Origin: Dendronalium phyllosphericum CENA369
GTDB lineage: Bacteria; Cyanobacteriota; Cyanobacteriia; Cyanobacteriales; Nostocaceae
Reading direction: 5' to 3'
NCBI RefSeq assembly: GCF_016056275.1
Contig: NZ_JAECZA010000001.1
Coordinates: 62,934 to 126,933, forward strand
Length of the DNA stretch: 64,000 nucleotides
Shown: in pieces, positions 26,976-55,494 of the stretch
How positions within the stretch are numbered: the first letter of the stretch is position 1
Layout: each line of letters starts with the position of its first letter
The notes under the pieces: model-generated
Databases searched by the model: none
What the model was told of the DNA's origin: nothing
What the model saw: the letters and a program-made list of their open reading frames with translations, nothing else
Position numbers and translations under genes: made by a program

Positions 26976-26977
26976 TT

Positions 26978-28592: not shown

Positions 28593-28645
28593 GGTAAATA
28601 TCAAAATTTTGTATTTATTGTAAAAAATAGTGAGTGTGTTAAGAC

Positions 28646-31186: not shown

Positions 31187-31307
31187 AAATAATCTAAAAA
31201 ATATTAAGAAATCATATCTTCATATTAAATGGAATAACTTATCAATAATTTATTTTATCAACTATCAACTAAAGTTTTTTACACCACAAAAGCAAATTTA
31301 AATTCAC

Positions 31308-32102: not shown

Positions 32103-32184
32103 TTTATAGCTATCCTAATCTATCCACAGATAAAACATAAGTAGTTAAAAATTGTCAACTACTATTGGAATTTAAAAATGTAAT

Positions 32185-33258: not shown

Positions 33259-33461
33259 CTACTGTCAATTGCTATGAATTGAGCGATGGTCATATTTTAA
33301 TAACCTGAAAAGACATATAACAAGAACATATTTTAAACTAAAAATCATTACGTAAAAAAATATAATTTAAGTGATACTAATCATAATCATGCCTAAAATG
33401 CTTACTTTTAAATTACAAATGATTACCCTGATGAGTTAGTTTTAGTTGTGCCTACATACTT

Positions 33462-34361: not shown

Positions 34362-34429
34362 TTTTTACTTATACCTTATAGCGATAATAAATAATAACTC
34401 AAACAGTGTATTTAGAAAAATCAACGACT

Positions 34430-35389: not shown

Positions 35390-35502
35390 GAGTTTAATTT
35401 TTCAAAAATTATGCATCAAAAAATTGAAAATTTTAAAATGTATGAGCTATATAAATAAGTTAACTATCAATCACTAAATGCAATTATTAGGAATAATTAA
35501 AT

Positions 35503-36627: not shown

Positions 36628-36737
36628 ATTGTCTACAAGTGTTATTTTTGCCTAAGTATGCATCTTGAATTTAGTTACAGGTAAAAGTAGTTTTTTACGT
36701 AATTAACAACTCGGTATAATAATTAAAAAGACTAGCT

Positions 36738-37544: not shown

Positions 37545-37553
37545 AGTTAAACA

Positions 37554-38804: not shown

Positions 38805-38819
38805 AGGCGCGATAAAGCA

Positions 38820-39998
38820 ATGCGTATCCTAAGTATACATAACAACTATCAAATCCGTGGTGGCGAGGACGAATCTCGTGAGTCAGAAGAAAGACTGTTA
38901 CGAGAAATGGGTCATGAAGTTGACGTATACCAAGAGCATAATGACCGGGTAGCAGAACTAGGAGCCGTACCGATGGCACTCAGAACTGTCTGGTCAACAG
39001 AGTCTTACAACATAGTTAAACAAAAACTCAGTAGTTCAAATTACGACATAGTCCATATACAGAATTTTTTTCCTTTAATTTCACCCTCTGTTTACTATGC
39101 CGCAAAGTCTGTAGGCGTGCCTGTAGTTCAAACCTTGCGAAATTACCGCCTCCTATGTCCTAATGGCTTATTTTTCCGCGATGGGGAAGTCTGTGAAGAT
39201 TGTATGGGTAAATTCATTCCCTATCCTGGAGTTTTGCATGGTTGCTACCGCGAAAACCGATCGGCAACTGGAGCCGTAGCAACCATGCTAACTGTACACC
39301 GCGCTATGCGTACTTGGATAGAGATGGTAGATGTATATATTGCTCTAACTGAGTTTGCGCGGCAGAAATTTATCGCAGGCGGTCTGCCAGCCGAAAAAAT
39401 CGTAGTCAAACCTAACTTTGTGAATCCCGACCCAGGTGTAGGGAAGGGTTCGGGTGGCTATGCTCTTTTTGTAGGAAGACTTTCTACAGAAAAGGGATTA
39501 GACACTTTACTTGCTGCTTGGGAACATCTAGACAGCAAAGTACCTCTAAAAATTGTTGGGGATGGTCCTCTAAGTTCTCAGGTTATGGAATCAGTCAAAA
39601 GACTACCTGAAGTAGAGTGGCTGGGACGCAGACCGATGTCAGAAGTACATCACCTGATGGGAGAAGCAATATTTTTAATCTTCCCCTCCAAATGGTATGA
39701 AACTTTTGGTCGCGTGGCAGTTGAAGCTTTTGCTAAAGGTACTCCCGTAATTGCTGCTAATATTGGGGCGATCGCAGAATTGGTAGACTCTGGTCGAACA
39801 GGCTTACATTTTTCACCTAGTAATTCAGAAGATTTAGCTGCCAAGGTGGAATGGGCTTTAGCAAATCCAACTTCGCTTGCCCAGATGCGTCATCAAGCAA
39901 GGGCTGAGTTTGATGATAAGTACACTTCTAAAGAAAACTACCGAAGAATAATGGAAATTTACAGGAAGGTTTGTAATTGTAAGCTTTCAACAATCTGA
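38820..39998 (+). CDS. family 4 glycosyltransferase, first of a paralogous pair
   Basis: A 392-residue GT-B enzyme beginning MRILSIHNNYQIRGGEDESR. It has the two-Cys insert VCEDCMGKFIPYPGVLHGCY, nucleotide-sugar domain FVGRLSTEKGLDTLL and catalytic block FPSKWYETFGRVAVEAFAKGTPVIA. It is clearly homologous along its length to the protein at 42970, but the two have diverged and share no long identical tract. It follows paralogue A of the preceding pair by 15 bp. Confidence 0.88.
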   Translation: MRILSIHNNYQIRGGEDESRESEERLLREMGHEVDVYQEHNDRVAELGAVPMALRTVWSTESYNIVKQKLSSSNYDIVHIQNFFPLISPSVYYAAKSVGVPVVQTLRNYRLLCPNGLFFRDGEVCEDCMGKFIPYPGVLHGCYRENRSATGAVATMLTVHRAMRTWIEMVDVYIALTEFARQKFIAGGLPAEKIVVKPNFVNPDPGVGKGSGGYALFVGRLSTEKGLDTLLAAWEHLDSKVPLKIVGDGPLSSQVMESVKRLPEVEWLGRRPMSEVHHLMGEAIFLIFPSKWYETFGRVAVEAFAKGTPVIAANIGAIAELVDSGRTGLHFSPSNSEDLAAKVEWALANPTSLAQMRHQARAEFDDKYTSKENYRRIMEIYRKVCNCKLSTI

Positions 39999-40027
39999 CT
40001 CAAGCAATTAAAACCACAGGGAGAAGT

Positions 40028-41398
40028 ATGAATGCAGAAATAGCACGTCGTACAAAACCAGAAGGATATATCCAAAACACAAGTTTAATATTAATCGCAC
40101 TTGCTAGCACTTTTTTTTCTCGTCTTATTGAGACTGCGGGTTTACCCGGATTAATCAATTTTCTACACTTTGCCATTGTCCCTGTAACTGTTGGAATCGT
40201 ACTAGCTAGTAGCAGAGCCAAAGACAGGTATCAAATAGCAAGTACTTGGGCTATTTTATCTGGTCTACTTCTCTTTTTAGGGGTGATGTTAATTAGTGCC
40301 CTTTTAAATAAAGCAGGATTAATTAATGTAGTATTGGATTTCTTGCTTCTTGGAGAACCTTTTCTGTTACTGGCAGCTATAATTAGTATTCCTTTTTCCC
40401 CAAAAAGTTTGGCAAAATTACAAACTTGGATAATGCGTTTTTGCTTTATTAATCTCTTTCTGGCTTATTTACAAAACTATATTATAGTACCATACTTTTA
40501 TAATTATTTACATACCAACCTTGGCGGTGCAGATCTCGTCCAAGGAGTTTTCTTTATCTCTGGAGGTGGTAATAGTTTATCAGCTGGTGTTTCCCTAATT
40601 TTTAGCGTGTATATTTTTCAAAAGGTAAATAAGGCTCCTTTTTGGCTGCGAATCATTGTGCCTCTTGCCTCATTTTGGCAGGTGTTGATGAGTGACTCAA
40701 AGCAACCACTAGTAGTATTCATAATAGCTTGGGCTATTTTGTCACTGGTTACATTTAAGAATATTCGCAAATTATTTTTGTATGTAATAAGTGTAGTTGT
40801 TGTTATAGCCGTCCTTTTTTGGTGCATCCAAAATTTAGAAATCTTTCGAGCTTACAAAACTTACGTCGATCCCTATTGGTACGACCCGAACGAGCGTACT
40901 ATGCAAATTAAATTTGCTGCATTGCGTATTATCCCTTCATATTATCATTCACCTTTAAATCTGTGGTTTGGTCTAGGTCCTGGTCATACCGTTGGACGCT
41001 TAGGAGGAGGGATGCTTAGTAAGTATGAAGATTTACTCAAGCCACTGGGAGTTACAATTAGTCCTGTTGGTCAAGCTGTTTGGGATGAATTTGGCTCTCT
41101 TGCCTTTGGAGGCCAAGTAGGTTCCATAAGCACTATTTTTTCTCCTTTTTGGGGCTGGGCTGGAATCTGGGGAGATTTAGGATTTGTTGGCTTAGGAACA
41201 TATCTTTATCTTGCCTCTTTAGTCTGGAGTAGACTTTGCAAAGATAGTTTTTCTAAGTTTTTATTGCTTAATGTATTAATAGTTGGTTTTGTTTTTACTC
41301 AGTTGGAAGAACCTGGTTACATGCTCTTCATAGCTATGATAGTAGGTCTGATATGGCAGGAAAATAGGCAAGAAAATTTAAAGATGTATGGAAGATAA
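40028..41398 (+). CDS. Wzy-like polysaccharide polymerase / O-antigen ligase-type membrane protein
   Basis: A 456-residue protein with about ten transmembrane helices and a large hydrophilic loop at about residues 265-375 (containing RAYKTYVDPYWYDPNERTMQ and LWFGLGPGHTVGRLGG). This layout, with a periplasmic loop rich in Arg, Tyr and Gly, is that of Wzy polymerases and WaaL-type ligases. In a Wzy role it would join repeat units in the periplasm. Sequence conservation in the family is weak, so the call rests on topology, the GLGPG loop and location. A GGGAGA ribosome site precedes ATG 40028. Confidence 0.72.
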   Translation: MNAEIARRTKPEGYIQNTSLILIALASTFFSRLIETAGLPGLINFLHFAIVPVTVGIVLASSRAKDRYQIASTWAILSGLLLFLGVMLISALLNKAGLINVVLDFLLLGEPFLLLAAIISIPFSPKSLAKLQTWIMRFCFINLFLAYLQNYIIVPYFYNYLHTNLGGADLVQGVFFISGGGNSLSAGVSLIFSVYIFQKVNKAPFWLRIIVPLASFWQVLMSDSKQPLVVFIIAWAILSLVTFKNIRKLFLYVISVVVVIAVLFWCIQNLEIFRAYKTYVDPYWYDPNERTMQIKFAALRIIPSYYHSPLNLWFGLGPGHTVGRLGGGMLSKYEDLLKPLGVTISPVGQAVWDEFGSLAFGGQVGSISTIFSPFWGWAGIWGDLGFVGLGTYLYLASLVWSRLCKDSFSKFLLLNVLIVGFVFTQLEEPGYMLFIAMIVGLIWQENRQENLKMYGR

Positions 41399-41618
41399 AC
41401 TTTTATAGCAAGTCTTTATTTACAATCAGTAGTTAATATGGATCAACAAAAAGGAAAATTGTTTGTATTGCCGAAGTCTTAAATACTTTTTACATGTGGG
41501 TGATAAATTTACAATAATTTTAAAATTATTGAACAGCAATATCTGCAAGTATTTATACACTTTTACCATCGTAAATGAAACATAAATACGTTACACATCA
41601 ATCTGTATAATAAAACAC

Positions 41619-41641
41619 AAATCTCGATACTGACGAGATTT
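41619..41641 (+). promoter_or_regulatory. hairpin with T run immediately before a start codon
   Basis: AAATCTCG (41619-41626) pairs with CGAGATTT (41634-41641) around a 7-base loop, running into TTTTT. The ATG of the next gene follows 2 bases later, at 41644. The hairpin would hide the ribosome-binding region and looks like a terminator or attenuator. Confidence 0.6.
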
Positions 41642-41643
41642 TT

Positions 41644-42876
41644 ATGAAAATTATTATTTCTGCGTATGCCTGCGAACCAGGTCAAGGTTCTGAGCCAGGG
41701 GTCGGCTGGAATGTCGTTCGGGAAGTCAGCAAATATCACCAAGTCTGGGTCTTGACCTCACACTGCCACCGCCTAGGTATTGAAGCGGAACTAGCAAGCA
41801 ACCCCTTGCCTAACCTAAACTTCGTTTACCTCGATCCCTTTGGCTGGGTAATAGATTGGAGCCTGAAAGGAAAACAGACACAGAGGTGGGTTCAGTTTCA
41901 CTACTACATCTGGCAAATTAAAGCTTATTTTGTCAGTTGCTTACTCTACCAAGAAATTAACTTTGACATAGTACATCATGTGACTTATGTCAGGTATTCG
42001 TCACCCAGTTTTGTTTCACTATTACCAATTCCCTTTATCTGGGGTCCTGTAGGAGGTGGAGAATCAACTCCCAAAGCTTTTTACAAAGATTTCAGCCTTC
42101 GTAGCAGAATCTACGAATTGTTGAGAAATCTGGCTCGCTGGCTAGGAGAACAAGACCCATTTGTACGTCTGACCGCGCGACGTAGCAGCCTAGCTTGGGC
42201 TACAACTGAAGATACGGCTAAAAGGTTGCATCACATCGGTGCAAAAAATGTTCGAGTACGTTCTCAGTTGGGTATTTCTCAGGAGGAATTGATTAAAATA
42301 GATTACACAATGCCGATTAATTCTCCAATCCGGTTCATCAGTGTCGGTCGACTTCTGCACTGGAAAGGTTTTCATTTGGGATTAGCTGCATTTGCCAAAG
42401 CAAATCTTTCTGATTGTGAGTATTGGATTGTCGGCGAAGGACCTGAAGAACAACAACTACGAATTCTCACTCAAGAACTAGGTATTAGCGAACAAGTGAA
42501 ATTTTGCGGTAGTTTGTCTCGTAACCAGACCTGGAGTAAGATAGGACACTGCCATATTTTAGTTCATCCTAGCTTGCACGAATCAGGGGGATTTGTATGT
42601 TTGGAAGCAATGGCTTTAGGGCGACCAGTGATTTGTTTGGATTTAGGTGGTCCAGCCGTTCAGGTGACATCAGAAACTGGCTTTAAAATCCCAGCACATA
42701 CACCTGAGCAAGCTGTACAAGATATTGCCCAAGCAATGAGGTGTTTGGTCTCAGACCCAGAGTTAAGATTGTGTATGGGTCATGCTGGTCAACAACGGGT
42801 AAAAAAATTTTTTAGTTGGGAGATTAAAGGTTTTTTCTTATCAGAACTATATAAAGAAGTTTGTAATCAGCAATAA
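41644..42876 (+). CDS. family 4 glycosyltransferase, paralogue B of a converted pair
   Basis: A 410-residue GT-B enzyme beginning MKIIISAYACEPGQGSEPGV. Its residues about 111-357 are identical to those of the protein at 37554 and the DNA is identical there too as far as can be seen, whereas N- and C-terminal parts share only about half of residues. The catalytic block LVHPSLHESGGFVCLEAMALG lies in the shared part, so both enzymes probably use the same donor, while the divergent N-terminal domain (acceptor side) may give different acceptors. A terminator-like hairpin ends 2 bases before its ATG. Confidence 0.88.
   Translation: MKIIISAYACEPGQGSEPGVGWNVVREVSKYHQVWVLTSHCHRLGIEAELASNPLPNLNFVYLDPFGWVIDWSLKGKQTQRWVQFHYYIWQIKAYFVSCLLYQEINFDIVHHVTYVRYSSPSFVSLLPIPFIWGPVGGGESTPKAFYKDFSLRSRIYELLRNLARWLGEQDPFVRLTARRSSLAWATTEDTAKRLHHIGAKNVRVRSQLGISQEELIKIDYTMPINSPIRFISVGRLLHWKGFHLGLAAFAKANLSDCEYWIVGEGPEEQQLRILTQELGISEQVKFCGSLSRNQTWSKIGHCHILVHPSLHESGGFVCLEAMALGRPVICLDLGGPAVQVTSETGFKIPAHTPEQAVQDIAQAMRCLVSDPELRLCMGHAGQQRVKKFFSWEIKGFFLSELYKEVCNQQ
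41973..42716 (+). repeat. 744-bp direct repeat, copy B
   Basis: Same sequence and orientation as 37877-38620. The first mismatch on the left is at 41972 (T against C) and similarity falls away after 42716. Confidence 0.9.
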
Positions 42877-42969
42877 ATACCTGAGCTAACAAACCTGAAT
42901 TTTACCAGTTTCTACCCTTCTAACCTAATTTATCAATTATTTATCAAAATCCAGCTTAGAGAAACAAGC

Positions 42970-44178
42970 ATGAAGCTGTTAATTTTACATAATCGCTACC
43001 GATTTGCTGGTGGCGAAGATAGGGTAGTTCAGGCAGAAAAAAGGTTATTAGAGGCGAATGGTCATGAAGTGATTTTGTTGGAAGAAAATAACCATAGTAT
43101 AGTCAGCGTTTGGGATACATTTGTAGCAGCAGGAGGAGCTATTTATTCTTTTGCAGCTAAAAACCGGGTCGAAGCAGAAATAAGACGATTCTGCCCAGAA
43201 ATAGTACATGTGCATAACTTTTTTCCGCTCCTTTCTCCTGCTGTGTACGACGCTTGTTATAGTGCGGGAGTACCTGTTGTTCAAACTCTTCACAACTATC
43301 GGCTTGCTTGTCCTAAAGCAATGCCATTTCGAGATGGTAATACTTGTGAAGATTGCATTGGCAAACTAATACCTTGGTCAAGTGTTGTTCATGCTTGCTA
43401 CCGCAACTCTCATCTTCAAAGTTCAGTTGTGGCAACAATGAGTACTTGGCATCGACTACAAGGTACTTGGCAAAAGCGAGTAAATGCTTATATTGTTTTT
43501 ACCCATTTTCAAAAACAAAAAATGGTTCAAGCCCGACTACCGCCAGAAAAAATTTATATCAAACCAAATTTTGTTTTCCATACTGACTGCGTGCATAAAG
43601 ATAGCCAGTATAATAACTACATACTTTTTGTTGGAAGACTTTCAGAAGAAAAGGGAGTTTCACTTCTGATTGATGCTTATGTTCAGAACAACTTATCTAT
43701 ACCACTAAAAATTGTTGGTGACGGCCCGTTACGTCTGGGACTACAAGCAAAAGTTCAAAACGCAGGATTTAGCAATTTGATTGAATTTTTAGGATTTCAG
43801 GATCAATCAACAGTTTTTCAACTAATGCATAATGCAAAGTTTTTAGTAATACCTTCCATTTGGTATGAAGCCTTTCCTTTAACTATCGTAGAAGCTTTTG
43901 CTTGTAGTCTTCCTGTATTAGCTCCTAAATTAGGGAGTATGGCAGAGATAGTAGAAGATGGAGTAAATGGTTTGCACTTTGAAGCTAGAAATCCTCAGGA
44001 TTTAGCTGCTAAAATCAACTGGGCAATAAAACACTCAGAAGTAATGGGCACTATTGGTAAAAATGCTCGTTCTACTTATGAATTAAAATATACGTCAGAA
44101 GCTAATTACAACCAGCTAATTAAAATTTATCAAGAAGTAATTGATAAAGCTAAGTTTAAATTAGGCAACAAATTTTAG
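42970..44178 (+). CDS. family 4 glycosyltransferase, second of a paralogous pair
   Basis: A 402-residue GT-B enzyme beginning MKLLILHNRYRFAGGEDRVV. Motifs TCEDCIGKLIPWSSVVHACYR, FVGRLSEEKGVSLLI and IPSIWYEAFPLTIVEAFACSLPVLAP parallel those of the protein at 38820. It follows paralogue B by about 90 bp, repeating the gene order found before the polymerase. It is the last gene of the plus-strand locus and converges on the lasso-peptide cluster. Confidence 0.88.
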   Translation: MKLLILHNRYRFAGGEDRVVQAEKRLLEANGHEVILLEENNHSIVSVWDTFVAAGGAIYSFAAKNRVEAEIRRFCPEIVHVHNFFPLLSPAVYDACYSAGVPVVQTLHNYRLACPKAMPFRDGNTCEDCIGKLIPWSSVVHACYRNSHLQSSVVATMSTWHRLQGTWQKRVNAYIVFTHFQKQKMVQARLPPEKIYIKPNFVFHTDCVHKDSQYNNYILFVGRLSEEKGVSLLIDAYVQNNLSIPLKIVGDGPLRLGLQAKVQNAGFSNLIEFLGFQDQSTVFQLMHNAKFLVIPSIWYEAFPLTIVEAFACSLPVLAPKLGSMAEIVEDGVNGLHFEARNPQDLAAKINWAIKHSEVMGTIGKNARSTYELKYTSEANYNQLIKIYQEVIDKAKFKLGNKF

Positions 44179-44258: not shown

Positions 44259-45494
44259 CTAATTAATTATATGAGTTATCATTAAGCGAATAGGTCGAAT
44301 TAAATAGTAGAAAAATGATAAGAAACTAGGCAAACTTACAAAACTACGGTCTGCAATTGTGGGGATAATTATATGTTCATAGCAATAATAAATCCTGTCT
44401 AAAGTATGTTCTATTAACTTTAGATGAAATAATGCTATTTTCAACTGGTTACTCGAAAAAGAGTCTGCTTTTGGACAATAAAATAGTATAATAATCTGAG
44501 AACAAAGGGATTTAACTACTAAATCAACTGCTATTTCTTTTAGGATATTTTCAGGAAGCTCTGCATCCAAAAGCTCATGAGCTAGTGAAAGTCCAAGTAA
44601 CAGCATTCGTCTCATCCGTAGCTTGGTAGTACGCTGCCAAAGCTTTTCCCAATTTACCTCTGGATGGGCACGAATTGCTTCGGCTAGATCGCAAATCCGA
44701 TTCAGCGATCGCCAACAATCTTTACCACCTTGCGAACAGAGAACTATAATCAAATTCTCTGGGGAAAAGCTGAGTATTTGTTTGTCTGCAAAAGAAATAA
44801 TTTTTGTATCTTCCCAGATCCAGTCTGTATTATAGGTAAATGAAAATTGCTTTGATAAAATGCCTTGGTGAACGTCTAAAGTAATCTGCTCTTTAGGATT
44901 ATTTAAATGTAGTTCCCAATGAGAACGCAGATATGCATTCTGTTCTTGAACTGTGAGAGATTTCAGATAAACTGCTTCTTTTTCACTACTATCAGCATAT
45001 GGTTCAAATCCTTGAGCCATCAAAACTTCTTTGGTCTTGATAAAATCTTTTTTGTGAACTAAAAGATCCAAATCGCCGAAAGTTCGACGCGCTATATCTC
45101 CGTAAATTGCAGCAGCCAACACAGGCCCTTTAAAGGGAATTACAGGAATTGCATTCTCTGCAAAAATATTGAGAATTTTGACCAGTTTACTTGACTTGAA
45201 AAGGCTGCGTTGAGCATTAGCAAAATAATAGCGCTGCAAATAAGCTAGTATATCTTTTGGCACAAATTGCGAATAAGTATTGTTGAGAGTCAAAAATAGT
45301 AGTGGTAATACTCGATGCCAATAGGCAATTTCTAGTAGATATTTCCAATCAATATCTTCTTTTAGGAGTATTTTGATTTTCTCACTATTTTTCTCATCTA
45401 TAAAAGTGCGCGTACAACAAAGTAATAACTTAATTTCCGGACGAATATTTGTATTTTGCTGCTCTATTGTTTTTTCTAATAATACTTTATTCAT
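44259..45494 (-). CDS. nucleotidyltransferase-fold protein of the lasso cluster (NTP_transf_5 type)
   Basis: A 411-residue soluble protein of the 'uncharacterised nucleotidyltransferase' family PF14907. The nucleotidyltransferase signature is IPFKGPVLAAAIYGD (about 119-133) followed by RRTFGDLDLLV with metal-binding Asp141 and Asp143. The rest is helical, with WELHL, LDVHQG and LCSQGGKDCWRSLNRICDLAE blocks. Such proteins recur in lasso-peptide gene clusters next to HPr-kinase-like proteins and are thought to modify the peptide, but their reaction is not settled. It is the last gene of the cluster, 99 bp after the exporter gene. Confidence 0.8.
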   Translation of the reverse strand: MNKVLLEKTIEQQNTNIRPEIKLLLCCTRTFIDEKNSEKIKILLKEDIDWKYLLEIAYWHRVLPLLFLTLNNTYSQFVPKDILAYLQRYYFANAQRSLFKSSKLVKILNIFAENAIPVIPFKGPVLAAAIYGDIARRTFGDLDLLVHKKDFIKTKEVLMAQGFEPYADSSEKEAVYLKSLTVQEQNAYLRSHWELHLNNPKEQITLDVHQGILSKQFSFTYNTDWIWEDTKIISFADKQILSFSPENLIIVLCSQGGKDCWRSLNRICDLAEAIRAHPEVNWEKLWQRTTKLRMRRMLLLGLSLAHELLDAELPENILKEIAVDLVVKSLCSQIIILFYCPKADSFSSNQLKIALFHLKLIEHTLDRIYYCYEHIIIPTIADRSFVSLPSFLSFFYYLIRPIRLMITHIIN

Positions 45495-45593
45495 AGATAA
45501 TACTTACTTGTTTGATGATTTTGTACAAACGATCGCATATTTTTAATTAAGTGAGTTGATTTAGAAAAAATAATTACTTGATTGAGTAAATTA

Positions 45594-47432
45594 CTAAATT
45601 AGGCTATTTTCAATTTTGGTTGACGAACCAGCTTCCATTTGATCTCGCCAAGACTGTGCGTAAAGACCGTTTAAATTCAACAATTCGTTATGGCTACCAG
45701 ATTCTACAATCTGGCCAGCACGCATCACGTGAATAATGTCTGCCTGCATCGCTAAGGTAAAGCGATGAGTAATTACAATTGCAGTGCGATCGCTTGCTAA
45801 ACTACGGAATCTCTCCAGCCAATCATTTTCAGCCCAAGGGTCCATAGCACTAGTTGGTTCATCCAAAATAATAATTTGGGCGCGTCGAAAAAATGCCCGT
45901 GCTAGGGCTAGGCGCTGCCATTGTCCGCCACTCAAATCAGTTCCATCTGGAAACAACTTGCCTAACATCGTGTTATATCCTAAAGGCAAGCGTAAAATCT
46001 TCTCATGGATACCTGATGCTTGAGCTGCTGCTTCAATTTCTGCCTGATTTGATGCTGCTGACACATCACCCAAAGCAATATTTTGACCAGCCGTTGTATA
46101 GTACGAGGTTGGAGATTGAAACAAAACGGTAATTAATCGGCGGAGTTCTTTTACAGAAAAGTCACGTAAATCTACCCCATCGAGTTCAATACTTCCGGAA
46201 TCAGGGTCATAAAAGCGGCACAAAAGCTTAATTAGCGTGCTTTTTCCAGCACCGTTATCGCCAACGATCGCCACAATTTTACCAGATGGAATTGTGAGAT
46301 TAAAATTCTCTAATACAGCTTCTTCATTACTAGGGTAGCTAAATGTAACCTGCCGAAAACAAATTGCTTGTTTGGGTTTTAAAGGCACTGGTACAGGGTT
46401 AGGCGGATCGACAATTTTGGGCTGAATCTTTAAAAAATCAAACAAATTACCGATAAACAAGCTATTGCGATAAATTTGTCCCAGATTACCTAAAATATCT
46501 TTAACAATTCCTTGCCCTTGACGAAATGCTTGAAAAAAGAGGGCTAAATCTCCTAAAGTTAAAATCCCTAATAATACTTGTCGCCCCATCCAAACTAAGG
46601 CGATACCAGAGATAGTTAACGCAATTATCGCCGCAACGAAGCGACCTATAGTTTGATCTCGCAGGAGTTTTAGCTGTTCGTGTCTGAGTCGGCGACGCAG
46701 ATTTCTGTAAGATGACCGGAAGTGATTGGCAGAGTCAAACAACCTGATTTCTGCTGCCATAGCACTGTTTGTCAGTAGATAGTCGTAGTACATCAGCCAT
46801 CTGCGATCGGTTGTGGTTCTTTGCGACCATTGATACTGAACTTTGTTTAAGTAAATCAGCACATAAAATGCCGGAAAGGCGCTGATAACAAGAATGGTGG
46901 GTAGCCATAAACCATAAGGAAGCAAAACCGCAGCCATCGCCAACAAAGTAACGCCGTTCTGCAATAGACCGCCAGTACTTTCTAGTAAAGCAAGCGATCG
47001 CCCACTTGCTCCTTCCCTAGCTCTATTTAATTTGTCGTTATACTCAGAGTATTCATAAAATCCATAATCTACAGCAACCGACTGTTTTTGAATCAAATTA
47101 GTGATATAGTCGCCTACCAATTCTGATTGAGCTGTGCGAATCCATTCAGCCGCACTACTCAACAACTCCCCCACGAGCATAATGCCCGCTATTAAACCTA
47201 CTGGTAAAAGAATTTTCTGGATACTGGCCGTAGAGATACCAGAACCAGTGACATGCACCAAAGCATTCACCGCCCAGGGAGTGAGAGAAATAGAAGCTGC
47301 GGGAAGCAATCCTTGGACAAACAGCAAAACCATCCAGACTAATGTCCAATACCTAGATGCACTCCACACCAAGCTGAGAGTTCTAAGCAAATGGGAAAAT
47401 ATGATGTTGGCGCTGCGAAGTTTGCTAATCAA
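45594..47432 (-). CDS. ABC exporter (fused permease-ATPase), lasso-peptide D protein
   Basis: A 612-residue half-transporter. The N-terminal membrane domain has about six helices (two near residues 29-55 and 74-90). The ATPase domain has Walker A IVGDNGAGKST (about 388-398), signature LSGGQWQRLALARAF (about 497-511) and Walker B IIILDEPTSAMD. There is no N-terminal C39 peptidase domain, as expected for lasso-type D exporters, where B2 removes the leader. Its job would be export of, and immunity to, the mature peptide. It lies between the kinase and nucleotidyltransferase genes. Confidence 0.87.
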   Translation of the reverse strand: MISKLRSANIIFSHLLRTLSLVWSASRYWTLVWMVLLFVQGLLPAASISLTPWAVNALVHVTGSGISTASIQKILLPVGLIAGIMLVGELLSSAAEWIRTAQSELVGDYITNLIQKQSVAVDYGFYEYSEYNDKLNRAREGASGRSLALLESTGGLLQNGVTLLAMAAVLLPYGLWLPTILVISAFPAFYVLIYLNKVQYQWSQRTTTDRRWLMYYDYLLTNSAMAAEIRLFDSANHFRSSYRNLRRRLRHEQLKLLRDQTIGRFVAAIIALTISGIALVWMGRQVLLGILTLGDLALFFQAFRQGQGIVKDILGNLGQIYRNSLFIGNLFDFLKIQPKIVDPPNPVPVPLKPKQAICFRQVTFSYPSNEEAVLENFNLTIPSGKIVAIVGDNGAGKSTLIKLLCRFYDPDSGSIELDGVDLRDFSVKELRRLITVLFQSPTSYYTTAGQNIALGDVSAASNQAEIEAAAQASGIHEKILRLPLGYNTMLGKLFPDGTDLSGGQWQRLALARAFFRRAQIIILDEPTSAMDPWAENDWLERFRSLASDRTAIVITHRFTLAMQADIIHVMRAGQIVESGSHNELLNLNGLYAQSWRDQMEAGSSTKIENSLI

Positions 47433-47550
47433 GATATCAAAACCCTATAAATTCTCGAAGCAATTACAAAGAACTAAAAATATAGCCGTAGTTATCCTGG
47501 TCAGGACAGTGTTGATTGCTCAAAACTCAAAAGCAACTGGGTTTATACTT

Positions 47551-47590
47551 AGCACTCAGCACTCAGCACTCAGCACTCAGCACTCAGCAC
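47551..47590. repeat. heptanucleotide tandem repeat (STRR), unit AGCACTC
   Basis: Nearly six uninterrupted copies of AGCACTC. The repeat extends over the stop codon of the kinase-like gene (47584-47586), so the repeat supplies that gene's end. Confidence 0.9.
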
Positions 47591-48483
47591 TTCGCTGTAG
47601 CAGTCAGAGTATCGGCGCTGTCTGCCAAGTCATGCTCAACAAGCTTCACTAGTTCGGGTAAGTCTGCTAGAGCAGGTTTGCGAGTGAAGCGACGGAAGCT
47701 AACGTTTTTTACAAGCTCAGTACAAAGACGCAGATGAGAAGCAACAAATTCTGGTTCTGTCACTGCCATCATGGCACGGGTGTGACGCACCAGTTCTACG
47801 AAGGCATCTTGGGGTTGCAAACTGGTAATTTCGTGATTAGTGCCCTTGGAAAGTACATAAATCCGGTGTAACGGTAGGGGATTTTGTTGGAAACCTCGAC
47901 GAGGAAATTTATAGGCTAGCTTAAATGAATTTTGAGTAACCGGAGATAAACTGTCGGTATTGTGTCCTAGAGAAGCTAATGCTTCCGGCCAAAGCTTAAA
48001 TTGAGGGTAGGCAGGAAAAACTGTTAGACGACCTGCGGTGATTTCCACAGGCATGACATCATCTGTTAAAGTATCATAACCCTGAGTGTGGAATGCCGCT
48101 GCTAAAGTTGATTTACCCCATCCAGAACCACCCATAAATGCTACTGCTTTGTTGTTGATATCAACACAACTAGCATGAAGAACCAGTAGTCCTCGTTGCC
48201 GCAGTAATACGCACAATATAGGCCCTAAAACTAGGGTGCGGAGTAAAGCTTCTTCCACCCCAGGCAGAGTATCAACAATCACCTCATTTCCTTTGGATAT
48301 GACAAATTTACCAACTCCTGGTAAATCTCCCAAGAAATTGCTACCGCGATCGAATTCCGCCCCAGTGACATCGCCGACTTTACCAAACCGTACAATTACA
48401 TCTGGATTGCCCTCGCTCTCAATCAGTTCGGGCAAAAGTAGTTCAGAAGCAATGTATAAATTGTAGGCTTGATAAACTTTCAT
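47584..48483 (-). CDS. HPr-kinase-like tailoring kinase of the lasso cluster
   Basis: A 299-residue protein related to the C-terminal kinase domain of HprK. The P-loop AFMGGSGWGKSTLAAAF spans residues 115-131 with GWGKST, preceded by LVLHASCVDIN. Asp141/Asp142 in LTDDVMPVE are candidate catalytic or metal residues, followed by FPAYPQFKLWPEAL. In paeninodin-type lasso clusters a kinase of this kind phosphorylates the precursor. The C terminus (TATAKC) ends inside an STRR repeat and may be altered by it. It is 342 bp downstream of the precursor gene, separated by a hairpin. Confidence 0.82.
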   Translation of the reverse strand: MKVYQAYNLYIASELLLPELIESEGNPDVIVRFGKVGDVTGAEFDRGSNFLGDLPGVGKFVISKGNEVIVDTLPGVEEALLRTLVLGPILCVLLRQRGLLVLHASCVDINNKAVAFMGGSGWGKSTLAAAFHTQGYDTLTDDVMPVEITAGRLTVFPAYPQFKLWPEALASLGHNTDSLSPVTQNSFKLAYKFPRRGFQQNPLPLHRIYVLSKGTNHEITSLQPQDAFVELVRHTRAMMAVTEPEFVASHLRLCTELVKNVSFRRFTRKPALADLPELVKLVEHDLADSADTLTATAKC

Positions 48484-48825
48484 ATTTGGTTATATGCGAA
48501 CTATTACTATCTTCTCAAGAACAGTTTATTAGTACAGCATTTCATAAAATCGTAGTGAATTAACTAGTCCATTAATAATGGCTATGATTCAGTAACATCA
48601 CGACTTTTCTGTACTTAGGATTCTGGCAATTAAAATCAATATTTAAAACTCAAATTTCACAAAAAATACATTTATTCAGATGAAATGCCACGGGGATGCG
48701 CCATAATTTTTGGTCAAATCCCTGCGGCAATCTATCTAAATAGTTTTTACAAATCCCATCCGAAGTTTGCAGGGAGAAGTAGTAGAACTATTTCTCCTGC
48801 AATTTTCCTATTTGATGGATAGCCT
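48484..48825. other. spacer between precursor gene and kinase gene
   Basis: About 340 bp with no gene. It contains the hairpin at 48767-48802 and otherwise AT-rich sequence. A separate promoter for the downstream kinase-exporter-nucleotidyltransferase genes may lie here. Confidence 0.4.
48767..48802 (-). terminator. stable hairpin just after the lasso precursor gene
   Basis: On the minus strand TTGCAGGAGAA pairs with TTCTCCCTGCAA (one bulged C) around a 13-base loop, 23 bp after the precursor stop codon. No T run follows, so it fits partial termination or protection of the precursor mRNA better than full termination. Confidence 0.6.
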
Positions 48826-49008
48826 TTATTGGTGGAGGTCTACGGAACCATCACCAGTGATTGGGCTGTTAGTAGCGGGGTTGCTTGCGGGAGAGGAACT
48901 GCCGGGAAAGAACAAGAAATCGTCCTTATCGGATTTGCCTAGCAGTTGGGTAATCTCCGCAACGTTGCCGTGAGTTGTTAAAGTGGGTGTGCTGTACTGT
49001 TTTTTCAT
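48826..49008 (-). CDS. lasso-peptide-type RiPP precursor (A protein)
   Basis: A 60-residue peptide with a strong ribosome site (GAGGAG 8 bases before ATG 49008). The leader, MKKQYSTPTLTTHGNVAEIT, has the Y-x-x-P-x-L motif (Tyr5, Pro8, Leu10) and Gly14 recognised by B1 RRE proteins, and Thr20. If cleavage follows the usual rule of Thr at position -2, the core starts at Leu22: LLGKSDKDDFLFFPG then a Ser/Pro/Asn-rich tail ending GSVDLHQ. Asp29 and Asp30 would then be core positions 8 and 9, the normal ring-closing positions. It lies between the cyclase gene and the kinase gene. The exact core and its end are not certain. Confidence 0.85.
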   Translation of the reverse strand: MKKQYSTPTLTTHGNVAEITQLLGKSDKDDFLFFPGSSSPASNPATNSPITGDGSVDLHQ

Positions 49009-49065
49009 GATTGCATCTCCTCGTTTTGAGTTTGATTTGTAATTTAGGGTAATAACCCTTAATAC

Positions 49066-49104
49066 TTGGACTTACAGCGTGCAAATAAAGTCACAACCTG
49101 CCAA
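49066..49104 (-). repeat. partial duplication of the cyclase gene 3' end
   Basis: TTGGACTTACAGC...AAAGTCACAACCTGCCAA repeats, with about 21 bases deleted and a few changes, the sequence at 49108-49168 that encodes WQAVTLALWLDHKQVML and the stop of the cyclase. The copy reads WQVVTLFARCKS in the same direction. Confidence 0.7.
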
Positions 49105-49113
49105 GAATTGGAC

Positions 49114-51129
49114 TTACAGCATCACTTGCTTGTGGTCAAGCCACAAAGCTAAAGTAACAGCCTGCCAAACTACCGTACTGTCATCATTGCTAGCTTTGTC
49201 ATCGGCTGATATCAACCGCTGATAAGCTGTTCGTAAGAAATCTACATTTATATACTTTTCGATACTTTCTAATTTATTGCACATCACTTCATCTAGAATC
49301 TGGCGATCGCGATGCACTAGACCATGCAGAAAATTCGGTGTTAAATTTGTTTTTCCCCCTCGCCATTGAATTGTTTCTGGTAAAATGCCGTCTAAGGCAC
49401 GACGCATTACCATCCGACCCCATCCTTGGCATAACTTCTGCTCAGAAGGTAACGCTAGACAAAATTCAATTAGTCGCTTGTCCATAAATGGATGACGAGC
49501 TTCTAAGGAAAACATCGCTGCATATTGATCCATCTGCTCTAAGGTGTAAACCAGTATTCCTTGTGTGAGACTACGCCAATGTTCTTCCCGAAGGGTGAGC
49601 GGCGATTGGGTGGAGTTATCTAGTGTCTGAATCCGCTCTTCTAAATGAATTTGTTCGGCAAATTGACGCTTAACTAAGGGAATTTGCGAAATCAAGGATT
49701 TCTGAGATTTTTCTTGTTTATGCCAACGTTGCAATATTTGCTGTATAAAGGGTTTGATTCCATGATGGATAATCAGTAGTTTGCGGGAAATACCAAAATA
49801 TTGGTGGATTTTCTGCACTGCTTGAGCAAATGCTATCCAGCGGAACTGTTTGGCTAAATCCCGCAGTTGTGGCAAACCATAATTTCGCAACACAGCGGTG
49901 TGTGAAACATTATGATGTGGCGATAAAGCTTTTACTTCTTGGGCAAAAGTGTTCCACTTTCCTTGGCGAGCGAGTTCGCTGAGTCTAGTCGTACCGTGGC
50001 TAACGGTGGTGTCTCCATCAAAACCATCTAAAGTAATTCGCAGTCCCAATTTTTTTGCAGCATCATTGATCGTCCAAGGATAAAAATGACTCGGCCCCAA
50101 CAAAGCTTCATCTTCATACTGGAAAATACTATTCAAGTTAGATAGCGGGCCAATCCCATCGCCACGAACATAGTGGGGAATTAATCCTCCCTGTTCGAGT
50201 ACCGCATTGATATACGCACGCTCGTCACATTCAGGAATTTTGTCAAAAATACTTGAAATGGTATGTAGCTGAGTTTTTCCTTCTTGAGTAAGTAAATTCC
50301 GGGCTACACAAGTAATAGCAGAAGAGTCTAATCCACCGCTTAAGTGAGCTGCGATCGCAAAGGCACTACGCAAGCGACAGCGTACTGCTTCTGTAAATAT
50401 TTTCCGAAATTCCGCTGCATAGGCTTCGTTCGATTCTAACTGTAATTCCCGCTGCTCCAGCGTCCAATACGACCAGATATTTAACCCTGACTGGTTAACA
50501 ACCATACTGTGAGCGGGAGGAAGCCGCAGGATATCTTGATATGTAGTGATGGCTTTGTCTTCCATCATCAATGCCAAGTAATCAGCAATTCTTACCTCGT
50601 TTAGTCGGCGCGGTACTTGTGGTAAACATAACAGCGCCTTAATCTCTGAAGCGAATACAAAGACTTGATTTGGTAGGTAATAGTAATAAAAAGGCTTGAC
50701 TCCAAAATGATCTCTTGCACAAAAAAGAGATTGCTGGCGTTTATCCCAAATAGCAAAGGCAAAGTCACCTAAAAGATGTTCTGGGCAAGATTCGCCCCAC
50801 TTTTCATAAGCAGCTAATATAAACTCGCTATCTGTAATCTTTTCAATTGGGCGTTCTGGCAGTTTCAATAAGGGTATCAGTTCCTCTCGATTATCAATCC
50901 GAGCATCTGCTGTAATTACAAGATTCCCTGCTTGATTCACTAGAGGTAGTTTCTCTATTAACGATTCAGGAGTTGTCCATAGCATTCGATGTCCAAAACC
51001 AACAGACTCCTCAACCCAGATATCTGCACCATCGGGGCCTCGATGTGCAAGTATATCAACCATTTTTTCTAAATATTGATAACTCACAGGCTGACTGTTG
51101 AGATTTTGAACACCCATAATGCCACTCAT
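49114..51129 (-). CDS. asparagine-synthetase-like lasso cyclase (C protein)
   Basis: A 671-residue protein starting at ATG 51129 (MSGIMGVQNL). The N-terminal glutaminase-like domain (to about 230) has AHRGPDGADIW and GDFAFAIWDKRQQSLFCARDHFGVKPFYYY, but position 2 is Ser instead of the catalytic Cys of true asparagine synthetases. The synthetase domain has the ATP pyrophosphate loop SGGLDSS (264-270). In lasso clusters this enzyme adenylates the Asp or Glu side chain and closes the macrolactam. Its ATG overlaps the B2 stop codon (ATGA), so the two are translationally coupled. The context, rather than sequence alone, separates it from AsnB. Confidence 0.88.
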   Translation of the reverse strand: MSGIMGVQNLNSQPVSYQYLEKMVDILAHRGPDGADIWVEESVGFGHRMLWTTPESLIEKLPLVNQAGNLVITADARIDNREELIPLLKLPERPIEKITDSEFILAAYEKWGESCPEHLLGDFAFAIWDKRQQSLFCARDHFGVKPFYYYYLPNQVFVFASEIKALLCLPQVPRRLNEVRIADYLALMMEDKAITTYQDILRLPPAHSMVVNQSGLNIWSYWTLEQRELQLESNEAYAAEFRKIFTEAVRCRLRSAFAIAAHLSGGLDSSAITCVARNLLTQEGKTQLHTISSIFDKIPECDERAYINAVLEQGGLIPHYVRGDGIGPLSNLNSIFQYEDEALLGPSHFYPWTINDAAKKLGLRITLDGFDGDTTVSHGTTRLSELARQGKWNTFAQEVKALSPHHNVSHTAVLRNYGLPQLRDLAKQFRWIAFAQAVQKIHQYFGISRKLLIIHHGIKPFIQQILQRWHKQEKSQKSLISQIPLVKRQFAEQIHLEERIQTLDNSTQSPLTLREEHWRSLTQGILVYTLEQMDQYAAMFSLEARHPFMDKRLIEFCLALPSEQKLCQGWGRMVMRRALDGILPETIQWRGGKTNLTPNFLHGLVHRDRQILDEVMCNKLESIEKYINVDFLRTAYQRLISADDKASNDDSTVVWQAVTLALWLDHKQVML

Positions 51130-51560
51130 AATTTCACTCCCTCCAAGGATGGCAGTGGCATATAGCGCGAAAGGTCTTGAAGATTGCCAATCACAACCCA
51201 TCCTTGGTACTCAATCCAAGCATGAGCTTCCAGTTTTCCTGTTTCTCCTTTTGTAACACCGATGCGGAGTTCGGGAGAATAGCCGTAGCGATTCATCAGT
51301 ACTTGAGTAGCCAAAGCACGCGCCAAACACTTTGCCCCAGGTACATAGCGGGTTGCTGCATTGACAGCCCAAACAATTTTGCTTATGGAGACTCGACGGT
51401 AAGTCTGCCCTTGCTGGCTAATTCTATTTAATAGTTTTAGTAAGGTGCTAAACCGTAGTAACCACAGCCCTAATCTGATTCCTGCCAATAAAATTAAGGT
51501 CTCGATTAAAAAATAGCGATCGCCTGCTCTCAAGCACAGGAAATTACGCAATCGTCTCAT
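51126..51560 (-). CDS. lasso-peptide B2 leader peptidase (transglutaminase-like)
   Basis: A 144-residue protein from ATG 51560, with GAGG 6 bases upstream; a TTG 12 bases earlier is possible. Catalytic residues of the transglutaminase-like fold are Cys78 (PGAKCLARALATQ), His113 (EAHAWIEYQG) and probably Asp129. The N-terminal 45 residues are helical and hydrophobic (FLIETLILLAGIRLGLWLLR). B2 cuts the leader from the precursor, working with B1. It overlaps the end of B1 by 17 bp and the start of the cyclase by 4 bp. Confidence 0.9.
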   Translation of the reverse strand: MRRLRNFLCLRAGDRYFLIETLILLAGIRLGLWLLRFSTLLKLLNRISQQGQTYRRVSISKIVWAVNAATRYVPGAKCLARALATQVLMNRYGYSPELRIGVTKGETGKLEAHAWIEYQGWVVIGNLQDLSRYMPLPSLEGVKL

Positions 51561-51858
51561 TTTTGACCTCAATTAGTCCAGCAGCTAGCAGGTTATTCAG
51601 TAAGGCTATCAGGTCGCGATCGCAACGTTCCGCTTCTACTTCATACTCTTCTAAAAGAATATACTTAATATCTTTAACAGCTTTTGGTTCTTGGATTAAA
51701 GTCCAAATCCTTGCTCCTATTTCATTTAATCCATGATAAATCCCAGTCTTGAGATGCAGAATGACCGCTTCGCCACCAATATCTGAGAAGATTTGCTCTT
51801 TATCTGCTACTACTACTGAAGAGTCTGAGATGTAAGTTTCTAATTCTGTAAATTTCAT
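51544..51858 (-). CDS. lasso-peptide B1 protein (PqqD-like RiPP recognition element)
   Basis: A 104-residue PqqD-family protein. The three-strand winged-helix RRE is visible in FSDIGGEAVILHLKTGIYHGLNEIGARIWTLIQEP and VEAERCDRDLIALLNNLLAAGLIEV. Free-standing RREs of this type bind the leader peptide (the YxxP motif) and hand it to B2. It is the first gene of the cluster; the promoter should lie in the roughly 700 bp upstream. Confidence 0.9.
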   Translation of the reverse strand: MKFTELETYISDSSVVVADKEQIFSDIGGEAVILHLKTGIYHGLNEIGARIWTLIQEPKAVKDIKYILLEEYEVEAERCDRDLIALLNNLLAAGLIEVKNETIA

Positions 51859-53295: not shown

Positions 53296-55494
53296 ATGCA
53301 AAAGTCAGAGAAATATACTCACCCGTTGTCACAAGCTAATGCTGCTCAATTAAATGACAGTGATGAGGGTGGATTAAATCTGGGTCAAATAGGAGCAGTT
53401 CTGCGTCGCCGAATCCTGTTAATTCTTGGTATAACAGGCTTTTTAGCAACGGCGGCGGTGTTGAAGGCAGAAACCGATCCTCCAGTATATCTGGGGACAT
53501 TCGAGATTTTAACTAGACCAGTAACGGGTGAGAGCAAAGTTATACAAGATGTTCCTCAAGCCCTAGGTGATGAAGATGCAGCCGGAAAATTAAACAACAC
53601 AACAATTCAAGTTTTACAAAGTCATCGAGTTCTCGATCCGATTATTGAAAAGCTGCAACCTAAATACCCAGACCTGACTTATCAATCACTAGTTGATAGC
53701 TTAGTTATTCAACCTGCTGTCAAGAACGGACAGATTTTACAAGTTCAATATACCGATGATGACCAACAGAAAGTTATCGATGTTTCCACTTTACTTGCTG
53801 ATGCTTATCTGAAGTATAGCTTGCAAGATCGTCAATCAGACATAGATCAGGCGATTAAATTTGTTATTGAACAAAGAAAGCCATTGGATGAGCGAGTTAA
53901 ATACTGGCAAAACCAATTGCGAAACTTGAGATGGGAAAATAGCTTAATCGATCCAGCACAGAAAGCTAATGAATTATCTGGTCAAATTGCTAGTTTTCGG
54001 CAAGAGCAAATAAATAATCGGGTGGAAATAGAAGAATTAGTAGCTAGATATGAAGATTTGCGAAGGGAATTAGTGCAACAGCCAGGTGAAAGGGCTGGAA
54101 ACAGCGTGTTAAGCGAAAATGCCAGATATCAAAGGATACTGGATCAAATTCAAACAGCGGACATTGAAATCAAGCAAAAGTCAGCCGTGTTTACGGATGA
54201 CAATCCAGCAATGGAGACATTAAGGCAAAGGAAAGCTTATTTACTTCCCTTACTTGCACAAGAAGAAATGCGAGTTCAAAGAGATTTTCAAAGTCGCATC
54301 CGCTCTTTGATAGCGCGCGATCGCGCTCTTGAAGATAAAATAAAAAATCTCAACAATAGTGTTAGAGAATTAGCAACTATTAGCCGGAATCACGATAACA
54401 TTCAACGTGAATTACAAATTGCCAACAATGGACTGACGCAATTTACAGCTAAACAACAAGCATTAGAAATTGAGAAATCTCAAAAGCAACAACCTTGGTC
54501 GTTACTCGATCCGAAACTCACTGAAGTGAATGAACCTGCTACCGTCTCAGACAGTGCTAAGAGAAACTTAGCCCTAGGAGGTATTTTAGGTTTATTGTTG
54601 GGTGTAGGAGCAGCTTTAGTTGTGGATAAACTCAGCGATATCTTCTACTCTGCTCAAGAACTCAAAGAGACTACTAGACTACCACTACTAGGGACAGTTC
54701 CTTTAAGAAAAGAACTTGAAGGAGCAGGAGCAAATGTCTCAAGAGGGGTACAACAACCACTTCGTGCTTCCTTTTTTGAAGTTTTTCGCTCTCTATACAC
54801 CAATATTCTGCTTTTAGGTTCAGATACTGCTATTCGTTCTTTGGTGATTAGTTCAGCAGGACAAGGAGATGGTAAATCTACCATTGCAATACAGCTAGCA
54901 CAGGCCGCCGCCGCAATGGGTCAAAGAGTATTACTGGTAGATGCTAATCTACGTTGTCCTAGCCTACACAATCGAGTAGGACTGATGAATATTCAAGGAT
55001 TGACGGATGTAATTTCCCAAGATTTAGACTGGCACAACGTCATCGAGCGATCGCCCATAGAGGAAAATTTATTTGTCATGACTGCTGGGCCCATTCCTCC
55101 AGACTCGGTTAGGTTGCTTGCATCTCATAAAATGCAAGATTTGATGAACGACCTCCAAGCAAGTTTCGACTTAGTTATTTATGACACCCCACCTCTATTA
55201 GGATTTGCAGATGCCTACCTCCTAGCTAATAATACTAATGGTATTGTGCTAGTGGCTGGTTTAGGTAAGCTAAAACGCACTGCCCTACAGCAAGTCTTAG
55301 AAGAAATTAAAATATCAGGGACTCCTTTCTTAGGGATGATAGCCAACAAATCCAAAGATGCTACACCTGTTTCTCACAACTACTATCAGCAATATTACAA
55401 ACAGAGCAGTAGTGCTGAGAGGGTCAGTGTAGAAGTGGTAAATGAAAGTAATTCCTCAGCTACTTCTGCTTTAAGAAGAACTAGAAGACCTTAG
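53296..55494 (+). CDS. Wzc/GumC-like polysaccharide co-polymerase and tyrosine autokinase
   Basis: A 732-residue inner-membrane protein. The N-terminal Wzz domain starts with GQIGAVLRRRILLILGITGF (TM1 about 38-58) and is followed by long coiled-coil periplasmic helices (about 180-400). TM2 is LALGGILGLLLGVGAALVVD (about 424-443). The cytoplasmic BY-kinase has Walker A SSAGQGDGKST (about 520-530), Walker A' VLLVDANLRCPSLH, Walker B VIYDTPPLLG and a Tyr cluster (HNYYQQYYKQ) near residue 694-703 that would be autophosphorylated. Such proteins set chain length and gate export of exopolysaccharide made by Wzy systems, so it likely works with the locus at 24-44 kb. Confidence 0.9.
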   Translation: MQKSEKYTHPLSQANAAQLNDSDEGGLNLGQIGAVLRRRILLILGITGFLATAAVLKAETDPPVYLGTFEILTRPVTGESKVIQDVPQALGDEDAAGKLNNTTIQVLQSHRVLDPIIEKLQPKYPDLTYQSLVDSLVIQPAVKNGQILQVQYTDDDQQKVIDVSTLLADAYLKYSLQDRQSDIDQAIKFVIEQRKPLDERVKYWQNQLRNLRWENSLIDPAQKANELSGQIASFRQEQINNRVEIEELVARYEDLRRELVQQPGERAGNSVLSENARYQRILDQIQTADIEIKQKSAVFTDDNPAMETLRQRKAYLLPLLAQEEMRVQRDFQSRIRSLIARDRALEDKIKNLNNSVRELATISRNHDNIQRELQIANNGLTQFTAKQQALEIEKSQKQQPWSLLDPKLTEVNEPATVSDSAKRNLALGGILGLLLGVGAALVVDKLSDIFYSAQELKETTRLPLLGTVPLRKELEGAGANVSRGVQQPLRASFFEVFRSLYTNILLLGSDTAIRSLVISSAGQGDGKSTIAIQLAQAAAAMGQRVLLVDANLRCPSLHNRVGLMNIQGLTDVISQDLDWHNVIERSPIEENLFVMTAGPIPPDSVRLLASHKMQDLMNDLQASFDLVIYDTPPLLGFADAYLLANNTNGIVLVAGLGKLKRTALQQVLEEIKISGTPFLGMIANKSKDATPVSHNYYQQYYKQSSSAERVSVEVVNESNSSATSALRRTRRP

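Follow-up and report, generated by a model that had tools for sequence, protein, structure and literature searches.

The window analysed here is a stretch of 64,000 nucleotides from the cyanobacterium Dendronalium phyllosphericum CENA369 (contig NZ_JAECZA010000001.1, positions 62,934 to 126,933). Its minus strand carries seven genes that probably direct the synthesis, phosphorylation and export of a lasso peptide. A first-pass annotation, made from the letters alone, had placed them in the order B1, B2, C, precursor, kinase (K), ATP-binding cassette (ABC) exporter and nucleotidyltransferase-like protein (NT). Indeed, all seven are present and intact in that order, at the following coordinates.

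51544..51858, minus strand: B1, discrete PqqD-like RRE domain, predicted to bind the leader (Pfam PqqD, 67.4 bits)
51126..51560, minus strand: B2, leader peptidase (NF033537, 113.7 bits)
49114..51129, minus strand: C, asparagine-synthetase-like macrolactam cyclase (NF033535 lass_lactam_cya, 1090.6 bits, full length)
48826..49008, minus strand: precursor A, 60 amino acids, leader 1-21 and core 22-60 (NF033528 lasso_cyano, 72.2 bits)
48919..48921, minus strand: codon for Asp30 (core position 9), candidate acceptor for ring closure (acidic core 9 in relatives)
48844..48846, minus strand: TCC codon for Ser55 (core position 34, within GSVD), candidate for the phosphorylated residue (conservation of the tail motif)
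47584..48483, minus strand: K, precursor kinase of HprK/PEPCK fold (invariant His-Lys-Asp-Asp; model fold)
45594..47432, minus strand: D, MsbA-like ABC exporter, TTG start (ABC_tran, 113.3 bits)
44259..45494, minus strand: NT, NTP_transf_5 protein with a predicted nucleotidyltransferase fold (PF14907, 208.9 bits; model fold)

B1 and B2 overlap by 17 bp (51544-51560) and B2 and C by 4 bp (51126-51129), as had been reported. Scans for promoters (19 sites against 22.5 expected) and terminators (3 against 6.9 expected) gave no operon signal; since both counts fall below expectation, co-transcription is suggested by gene order, strand and overlaps only. An array of 6.4 copies of the heptamer ACTCAGC (window 47547-47591) starts within the 3' end of the kinase gene and reaches into the gap before the ABC gene, and a stretch resembling it also lies at window position 15520.

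Conserved residues of the biosynthetic enzymes

Family matches and aligned residues support the initial proposal of a complete lasso cluster of the phosphorylated type. B1, whose nearest solved chain is 9x90_B (65.9 bits), scores 77.1 bits against NF033536, slightly below the cut-off of 80. All 16 aligned rows of B2 share Cys78 and His113. C scores 1090.6 bits for a family cut-off of 525, and two further NF033535 matches in the same genome fall below that cut-off; the glutaminase Cys belongs at residue 2 of such enzymes, and C has a Ser there instead. The exporter reaches 275.9 bits with TIGR02204 (MsbA_rel), under the cut-off of the model. The joint presence of B1, B2 and C with conserved residues is a mark of lasso clusters. 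A family scan of the seven proteins recognized B2 as the sole protease and no signal peptidase, and a PDB sequence search with B2, K and NT found no relative. The earlier view that the catalytic motifs are intact holds wherever residues could be aligned (Cys and His of B2, kinase, NT); it does not extend to the third residue of B2, which was not assigned.

Two comparison sets were used: 101 stretches, namely the window and 100 fetched stretches, and a scan of genome contigs whose best 80 matches gave 78 loci. The cyclase was found in 93 of the 101 stretches, and a kinase gene accompanies it in 92 of these 93. A family scan of K itself returned only weak HprK-related matches, under their cut-offs. 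Its predicted structure (confidence score pLDDT 93.6) matches those of PEPCK and HprK/P, and His103, Lys124, Asp141 and Asp142 are invariant in 15 of 15 rows; in a larger set of 38 kinases, His103 and Lys124 are still invariant and both Asp are kept in at least 90%. K thus has the His-Lys-Asp-Asp residues of the HprK-like kinases of the paeninodin and pseudomycoidin type. A review describes this motif as necessary in lasso kinases (PMC9266682).

The precursor and its predicted ring

The precursor scores 72.2 bits against NF033528 (cut-off 33). The 35 positions of that model cover residues 1-34 and end before the GSxD region, so that the model is silent on the modification site. The leader carries the motif YxxPxL, with Thr20 at position -2; from Thr(-2), the core reads LLGKSDKDDFLFFPGSSSPASNPATNSPITGDGSVDLHQ, in which Asp29 is core position 8 and Asp30 core position 9.

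Relatives were collected with a precursor finder that requires a YxxP-like leader and an ATG, and that misses some precursors (L131 and L135 yielded none). Seven of 151 candidate open reading frames (ORFs) were discarded as chance ORFs before counting, leaving 144 precursors. Core position 9 is acidic in 119 of them, for about 14 expected from composition, while an acidic residue occurs at core 8 in 18 and at core 10 in 7. The 124 distinct cores chosen for an acidic position 9 or 10 most often begin with Ala (48), followed in frequency by Val, Ile and Phe, and 103 of them have Gly at core 3. The window precursor combines Thr at -2 with an acidic residue at core 7-9, as lasso precursors do. Because of this Thr and of the Asp at the usually acidic core 9, a nine-residue ring joining Leu22 to Asp30 is likely; in paeninodin, too, nine residues separate Thr(-2) from the acceptor. 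The computed [M+H]+ of the window lasso is 4000.920, and 4080.886 with a phosphate; a hexose on the phosphorylated form would bring it to 4242.939. For a peptide cut off behind core Ser34 the corresponding three values are 3408.623, 3488.589 and 3650.642. A different kind of peptide is encoded at position 3831 of L053, beside K and ABC genes: it has a lasso-like leader and a very Arg-rich core without a ring Asp.

A conserved internal serine as candidate phosphorylation site

The first-pass annotation had noted that the precursor ends in Gln. This is correct, and the modified residue cannot be a C-terminal Ser. The C-terminal Ser of paeninodin and pseudomycoidin being absent, the window precursor is a variant of that type and not a member of it. 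The same annotation had taken the C-terminal Ser as the target of paeninodin-type kinases, which is true of paeninodin and is not required of such enzymes: BsfK acts on a ring residue, Ser3 (PMC10368454), and LppK is a kinase of the HprK-like kind that acts away from the C-terminus (PMC13381572).

Comparison of the tails points to Ser55, within a conserved GSxD, as the probable kinase site. Of 142 distinct precursors, 93 have the pattern [GDN]-Ser-x-[DN] in the tail; when each tail was shuffled 1000 times, the mean was 16.6 and the maximum 30. A count of four-residue patterns that was open to any motif, made in 87 cores filtered at 70% similarity, ranked FLFF (post-ring) and GS.D at the top, the latter in 53 of the 87 non-redundant cores for a shuffled mean of 2.65. 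In the 93 SxD precursors the Ser lies at core 23-40 and is followed by 4-28 residues of wide variability. The Asp or Asn at Ser+2 is also conserved, and the last residue is not (Lys in 22, Pro in 13, Gln in 12). The Ser of the site is encoded by TCN in 90 cases and by AGY in 5, whereas over every Ser of the candidate precursors, with the site itself counted, the numbers are 483 and 369; this bias fits a Ser that has long been kept. In one precursor (L143, at 7779) the Ser is replaced by Cys (LDGCPDG), and two sister precursors of the same cluster retain GS.

Twenty of the precursors that lack the pattern end in Ser. In the seven of them that were measured, those of the DVP type, the C-terminal Ser stands at core 23-26, which overlaps the range of the SxD Ser. 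Among 18 precursors from outside the cyanobacteria, 8 end in Ser (2.4 expected) and 14 have a Ser in the last four residues (8.1 expected); the SxD pattern, found in 3 of the 18 for 1.1 expected, is no more than a hint there. The simplest reading is that the kinases act on one post-ring Ser, often terminal, and that in the group of the window the peptide extends past it.

The NTP_transf_5 protein

In NT, Asp141 and Asp143 are invariant in 34 of 34 rows. The predicted structure (pLDDT 89.2) has a nucleotidyltransferase domain at about residues 98-308; this region of the model matches MenT1 with a Z-score of 12.8, and residues 98-295 match ANT(2'')-Ia with a Z-score of 11.2. Such a likeness between a predicted fold and these enzymes shows no function. 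The ribitol-phosphate transferase FKRP appeared in the first list of structures; at a second look its Z-score was only 6.7, and no claim is made of it.

A nucleotidyltransferase gene, presumably of the NTP_transf_5 type, is a feature of the pseudomycoidin cluster, and the window has one of that type (PF14907). PsmN has been linked to the presence of one or two hexoses on the phosphoserine of pseudomycoidin, nucleotidylation followed by the action of a host enzyme being also possible (PMC9266682). The product had first been described as phosphorylated or nucleotidylated: the phosphorylated type is retained, and nucleotidylation is just one of two readings, PsmN being tied to hexose addition. 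In B. subtilis, deletion of lppN caused no detectable change (PMC13381572). Since PsmN allows two readings and loss of lppN had no detectable effect, the step assigned to NT appears the least certain part of the pathway. The pairing of kinase and NT that the first annotation stressed does exist; it is not unusual, occurring in pseudomycoidin, in the bsf cluster of Bradymonas (PMC9266682, PMC10368454) and in 59 of the 93 cyclase-bearing stretches.

Proposed pathway and alternatives

From the genes, the family matches or folds and the conserved residues described above we infer a route that includes the order of steps, the phosphosite, the chemistry of NT and the threaded form of the product. 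B1 would bind the YxxPxL leader, and the HprK-fold kinase would phosphorylate Ser55 (core Ser34) of GSxD on the precursor. B2 would then cleave after Gln21, Thr20 serving as the recognition residue at -2, and C would join the Leu22 amine to Asp30 to close a ring of nine residues. The NTP_transf_5 enzyme might next add a hexose or a nucleotide to the phosphate, and the ABC protein would export the product. This order was chosen because PadeK acts on the precursor and not on the threaded peptide (PMC9266682), and because BsfB1 assists both the kinase and the peptidase (PMC10368454). We consider it rather probable that the cluster makes a phosphorylated lasso peptide in this way, with Ser55 as phosphosite, a Leu22-Asp30 ring, addition by NT and ABC export.

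A number of observations weigh against this interpretation. The 16-row alignment of B2 holds no invariant Asp, so that a third catalytic residue is not assignable. A core of 39 residues that starts with Leu is long and unusual for a lasso peptide, and in 6 of the 144 precursors core 10 is the sole nearby acidic residue, which would need a ring of ten. The tail motif was first spotted by eye and counted afterwards, and relatedness inflates its counts. It is lacking from 49 of the 142 distinct precursors; 20 of these end in Ser (4.5 expected) and 29 have neither feature. A control set of clusters without kinase was sought: K is absent from one of the 93 cyclase-bearing stretches (L057) and from five of the 78 genome-contig loci (L175, L197, L209, L220 and L237), four of the five lying on contigs that are very short or end soon after C. 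No such set being found, the kinase cannot be named as the sole cause of the conservation of the Ser. The fifth, L197, continues for 5.9 kb past C without a kinase, yet its precursor has GS near the C-terminus. Finally, the kinase tree does not cleanly split the site types. It was built by a quick method from 102 kinases (3 kinases without a found precursor, and ORFs of fewer than 220 amino acids, were excluded), with kinases assigned per stretch, so that in two-cluster stretches a kinase may not belong to each cluster. All but one of the 68 SxD kinases fall inside one 77-row set (SH-aLRT support 91, not starred). The 12 kinases paired with a C-terminal Ser are divided between a branch of their own (6; SH-aLRT 95, starred), another branch (4) and the SxD set (2).

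The residues after Ser55 could instead be a follower, cut off by a host protease to leave a mature peptide that ends in phospho-Ser as in paeninodin; in that case GSxD would indicate the place of trimming as well as that of phosphorylation. The wide variation of the 4-28 residues past the Ser would suit a discarded segment, and so would the overlap of core 23-40 with the C-terminal Ser of seven sister precursors at 23-26. Against it, B2 is the sole protease recognized among the seven scanned cluster proteins, and the conserved Asp or Asn at Ser+2 would not obviously be needed in a follower that is thrown away. We regard this as unlikely.

It is distinctly unlikely that the kinase targets a Ser or Thr of the ring, as BsfK does at Ser3, leaving GSxD to export or some other recognition. 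BsfK is described as strictly specific for core Ser3 (PMC10368454), and the window ring does contain a Ser, Ser26 at core 5. Nevertheless, 84 of the 93 SxD precursors have Gly at core 3 and none has Ser or Thr there; among the ring positions Ser is commonest at core 5, in 27 of the 93, and 41 of the rings contain no Ser, 9 of them neither Ser nor Thr. A branched or linear phosphopeptide of the LPP kind, with a cyclase that is inactive or acts otherwise, would suit the long core and the cyanobacterial stretches L066 and L072, which have B1, B2, K, ABC and NT genes without a cyclase, and is highly improbable given a full-length C that scores 1090.6 bits with its family and an acidic core 9 in 119 of 144 precursors.

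Comparison with known systems

The phosphorylated lasso peptide proposed here has its closest counterparts in the following systems. The psm cluster of Bacillus pseudomycoides likewise joins a kinase, PsmK, and a nucleotidyltransferase, PsmN, to lasso machinery; its site is the C-terminal Ser, whereas the window precursor ends in Gln and its candidate Ser is followed by five residues (PMC9266682). The paeninodin kinases PadeK and ThcoK are HprK-like with His-Lys-Asp-Asp, as in the window, and their family has a conserved C-terminal Ser, unlike it (PMC9266682). The leaders differ as well, being WxxP in Bacillota paeninodin-like precursors and YxxP in the window (PMC13381572). The bsf cluster of Bradymonas resembles the window in having B1, B2, C, an ABC gene, a kinase (BsfK) and a nucleotidyltransferase (BsfN), and in a site that is not C-terminal. 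It differs in its ring Ser3, penultimate Ile and Gly1-Asp8 ring, where the window has Thr(-2), Gly at core 3 and the acidic residue at core 9 (PMC10368454). The window thus lacks the bsf-type features (Ser or Thr at core 3, Ile or Val at -2).

The lpp system shares with the window an RRE, an HprK-like kinase, an NTP transferase, an MsbA-like exporter and phosphorylation of an internal Ser, predicted in the window; in P. alginolyticus it is also surrounded by polysaccharide genes, as the window cluster is (PMC13381572). LPP clusters have no cyclase and an SpI-like leader peptidase; the window has C and B2. A literature search by title and start of abstract, which makes a weak negative, found nothing on an internal Ser conserved among the lasso precursors of cyanobacteria, nor on their exopolysaccharide setting, and the phrase 'cyanobacterial lasso peptide' had no match in the literature searched. 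For Cyanocohniella sp. LLY a lasso precursor has been published in silico; no lasso kinase is mentioned in the excerpt of that report.

Distribution

The window cluster belongs to a type that is common in cyanobacteria, and is unexceptional within it. All seven genes occur together in 50 of the 101 stretches, window included, and the set is therefore not a chance assembly. The kind is also known, since NCBIfam already names the precursor (lasso_cyano) and the cyclase (lass_lactam_cya). In whole-genome searches with NF033528, the class gave matches in 46 of its 388 genomes (20 above the cut-off; E up to 0.001) and the family in 78 of 217 (63 above the cut-off; E up to 1e-4). Among the best 80 matches of the contig scan, the 78 loci include Acidobacteria, Rubrobacter, Mesorhizobium and several archaea, with a kinase in 73 and kinase and NT together in 48. 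The archaeal contigs L213, L218, L219, L228 and L235 (Methanothrix, Euryarchaeota, Methanobacteriaceae, Halosimplex) have a lasso-type cyclase and a kinase, and the Methanothrix and Halosimplex precursors carry GS very close to the C-terminus. Locus L197 holds C (8001-9905), a precursor and two NT genes; B1, B2 and a kinase were not found in it.

Some stretches depart from this organization. L066 and L072 (genomes G283 and G116) contain B1, B2, K, ABC and NT genes and two GGSGGFGTT-type precursors without a ring Asp, with no cyclase in the stretch; the G116 genome has no cyclase above the family cut-off. These are possibly a linear phosphopeptide family in cyanobacteria. In L056, L063, L064 and L067 the kinase stands beside a ELTQVSLEELQKMGPF-type peptide with a lasso-like leader, and B1, B2 and C are absent from the stretch.

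The exopolysaccharide neighbourhood

The lasso cluster sits inside what gene matches identify as an exopolysaccharide locus, whose parts lie on both of its sides.

24178..44178, plus strand: exopolysaccharide locus with a WecG-type glycosyltransferase (GT), an ABC-2/Wzt-like pair, a pyruvyl transferase, three GT2 and seven GT4-type genes (Pfam)
40028-41398, plus strand: P0009, membrane protein within this locus, Wzy-like (a putative name)
52554-52627, plus strand: tRNA-Gln (ttg), between the lasso cluster and the Wzc-like gene
53296..55494, plus strand: Wzc-like chain-length determinant / tyrosine autokinase, beyond the opposite end of the cluster (TIGR01007, 145.3 bits, cut-off 108)

P0009 had no Pfam or NCBIfam match at E 1e-5, and the ORF at 36738 in the same locus had no Pfam match. 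Linkage was counted in 80 of 95 listed lasso-bearing genomes; of the 15 omitted, some had very short contigs or no cyclase in the stretch and others were left out only to reach 80. Distances were taken from one or two precursor positions per genome, and Wzc matches above 550 bits were used. A P0009 homologue is present in 55 of the 80 genomes, as a single match in 53. Of these 55 genomes, 41 have it no more than about 22 kb from the lasso cluster, one at a distance of 228 kb and 13 on a different contig. A close Wzc occurs in 57 of the 80 and within 40 kb in 33, weaker Wzc homologues being present in all 80. One or the other protein is encoded near the cluster in 46 of the 80 genomes, and both in 28.

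Within the family, P0009 is found in 49 of 78 lasso-bearing genomes versus 35 of 139 others; its presence in genomes without a lasso cluster means that it is not itself part of the lasso set. Of the genome-contig loci, 28 of the 56 cyanobacterial ones and 8 of the 22 others showed exopolysaccharide-type genes, counts that have no control region beside them and include some weak matches (26-40 bits, L194 and L235). Shared descent can explain some or all of the linkage. Lasso clusters within capsular polysaccharide loci have been reported for Bacilli (PMC13381572).

Implications

What is new here is where the peptide is probably modified and where its cluster lies, within a gene region for sugar polymers; the gene set itself is common in relatives. 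With an internal site conserved across a large cyanobacterial family, the specificity of the kinase becomes testable by changing a single residue (S55A), and the cluster supplies product masses to look for. The role of phosphorylated lasso peptides is, to our knowledge, not settled. The position in an exopolysaccharide locus, which echoes the report on Bacilli, makes a role in surface sugars testable. Tentatively, and with low expectation, one may suppose that the phosphoserine of GSxD is a handle for sugar: NT would link a sugar or a sugar-phosphate to this residue, and the lasso peptide, once exported, would become a part, a regulator or an anchor of the exopolysaccharide that the surrounding locus makes. 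If this were true, a lasso-peptide glycoconjugate would be a normal part of cyanobacterial sheath biology and not an antibiotic.

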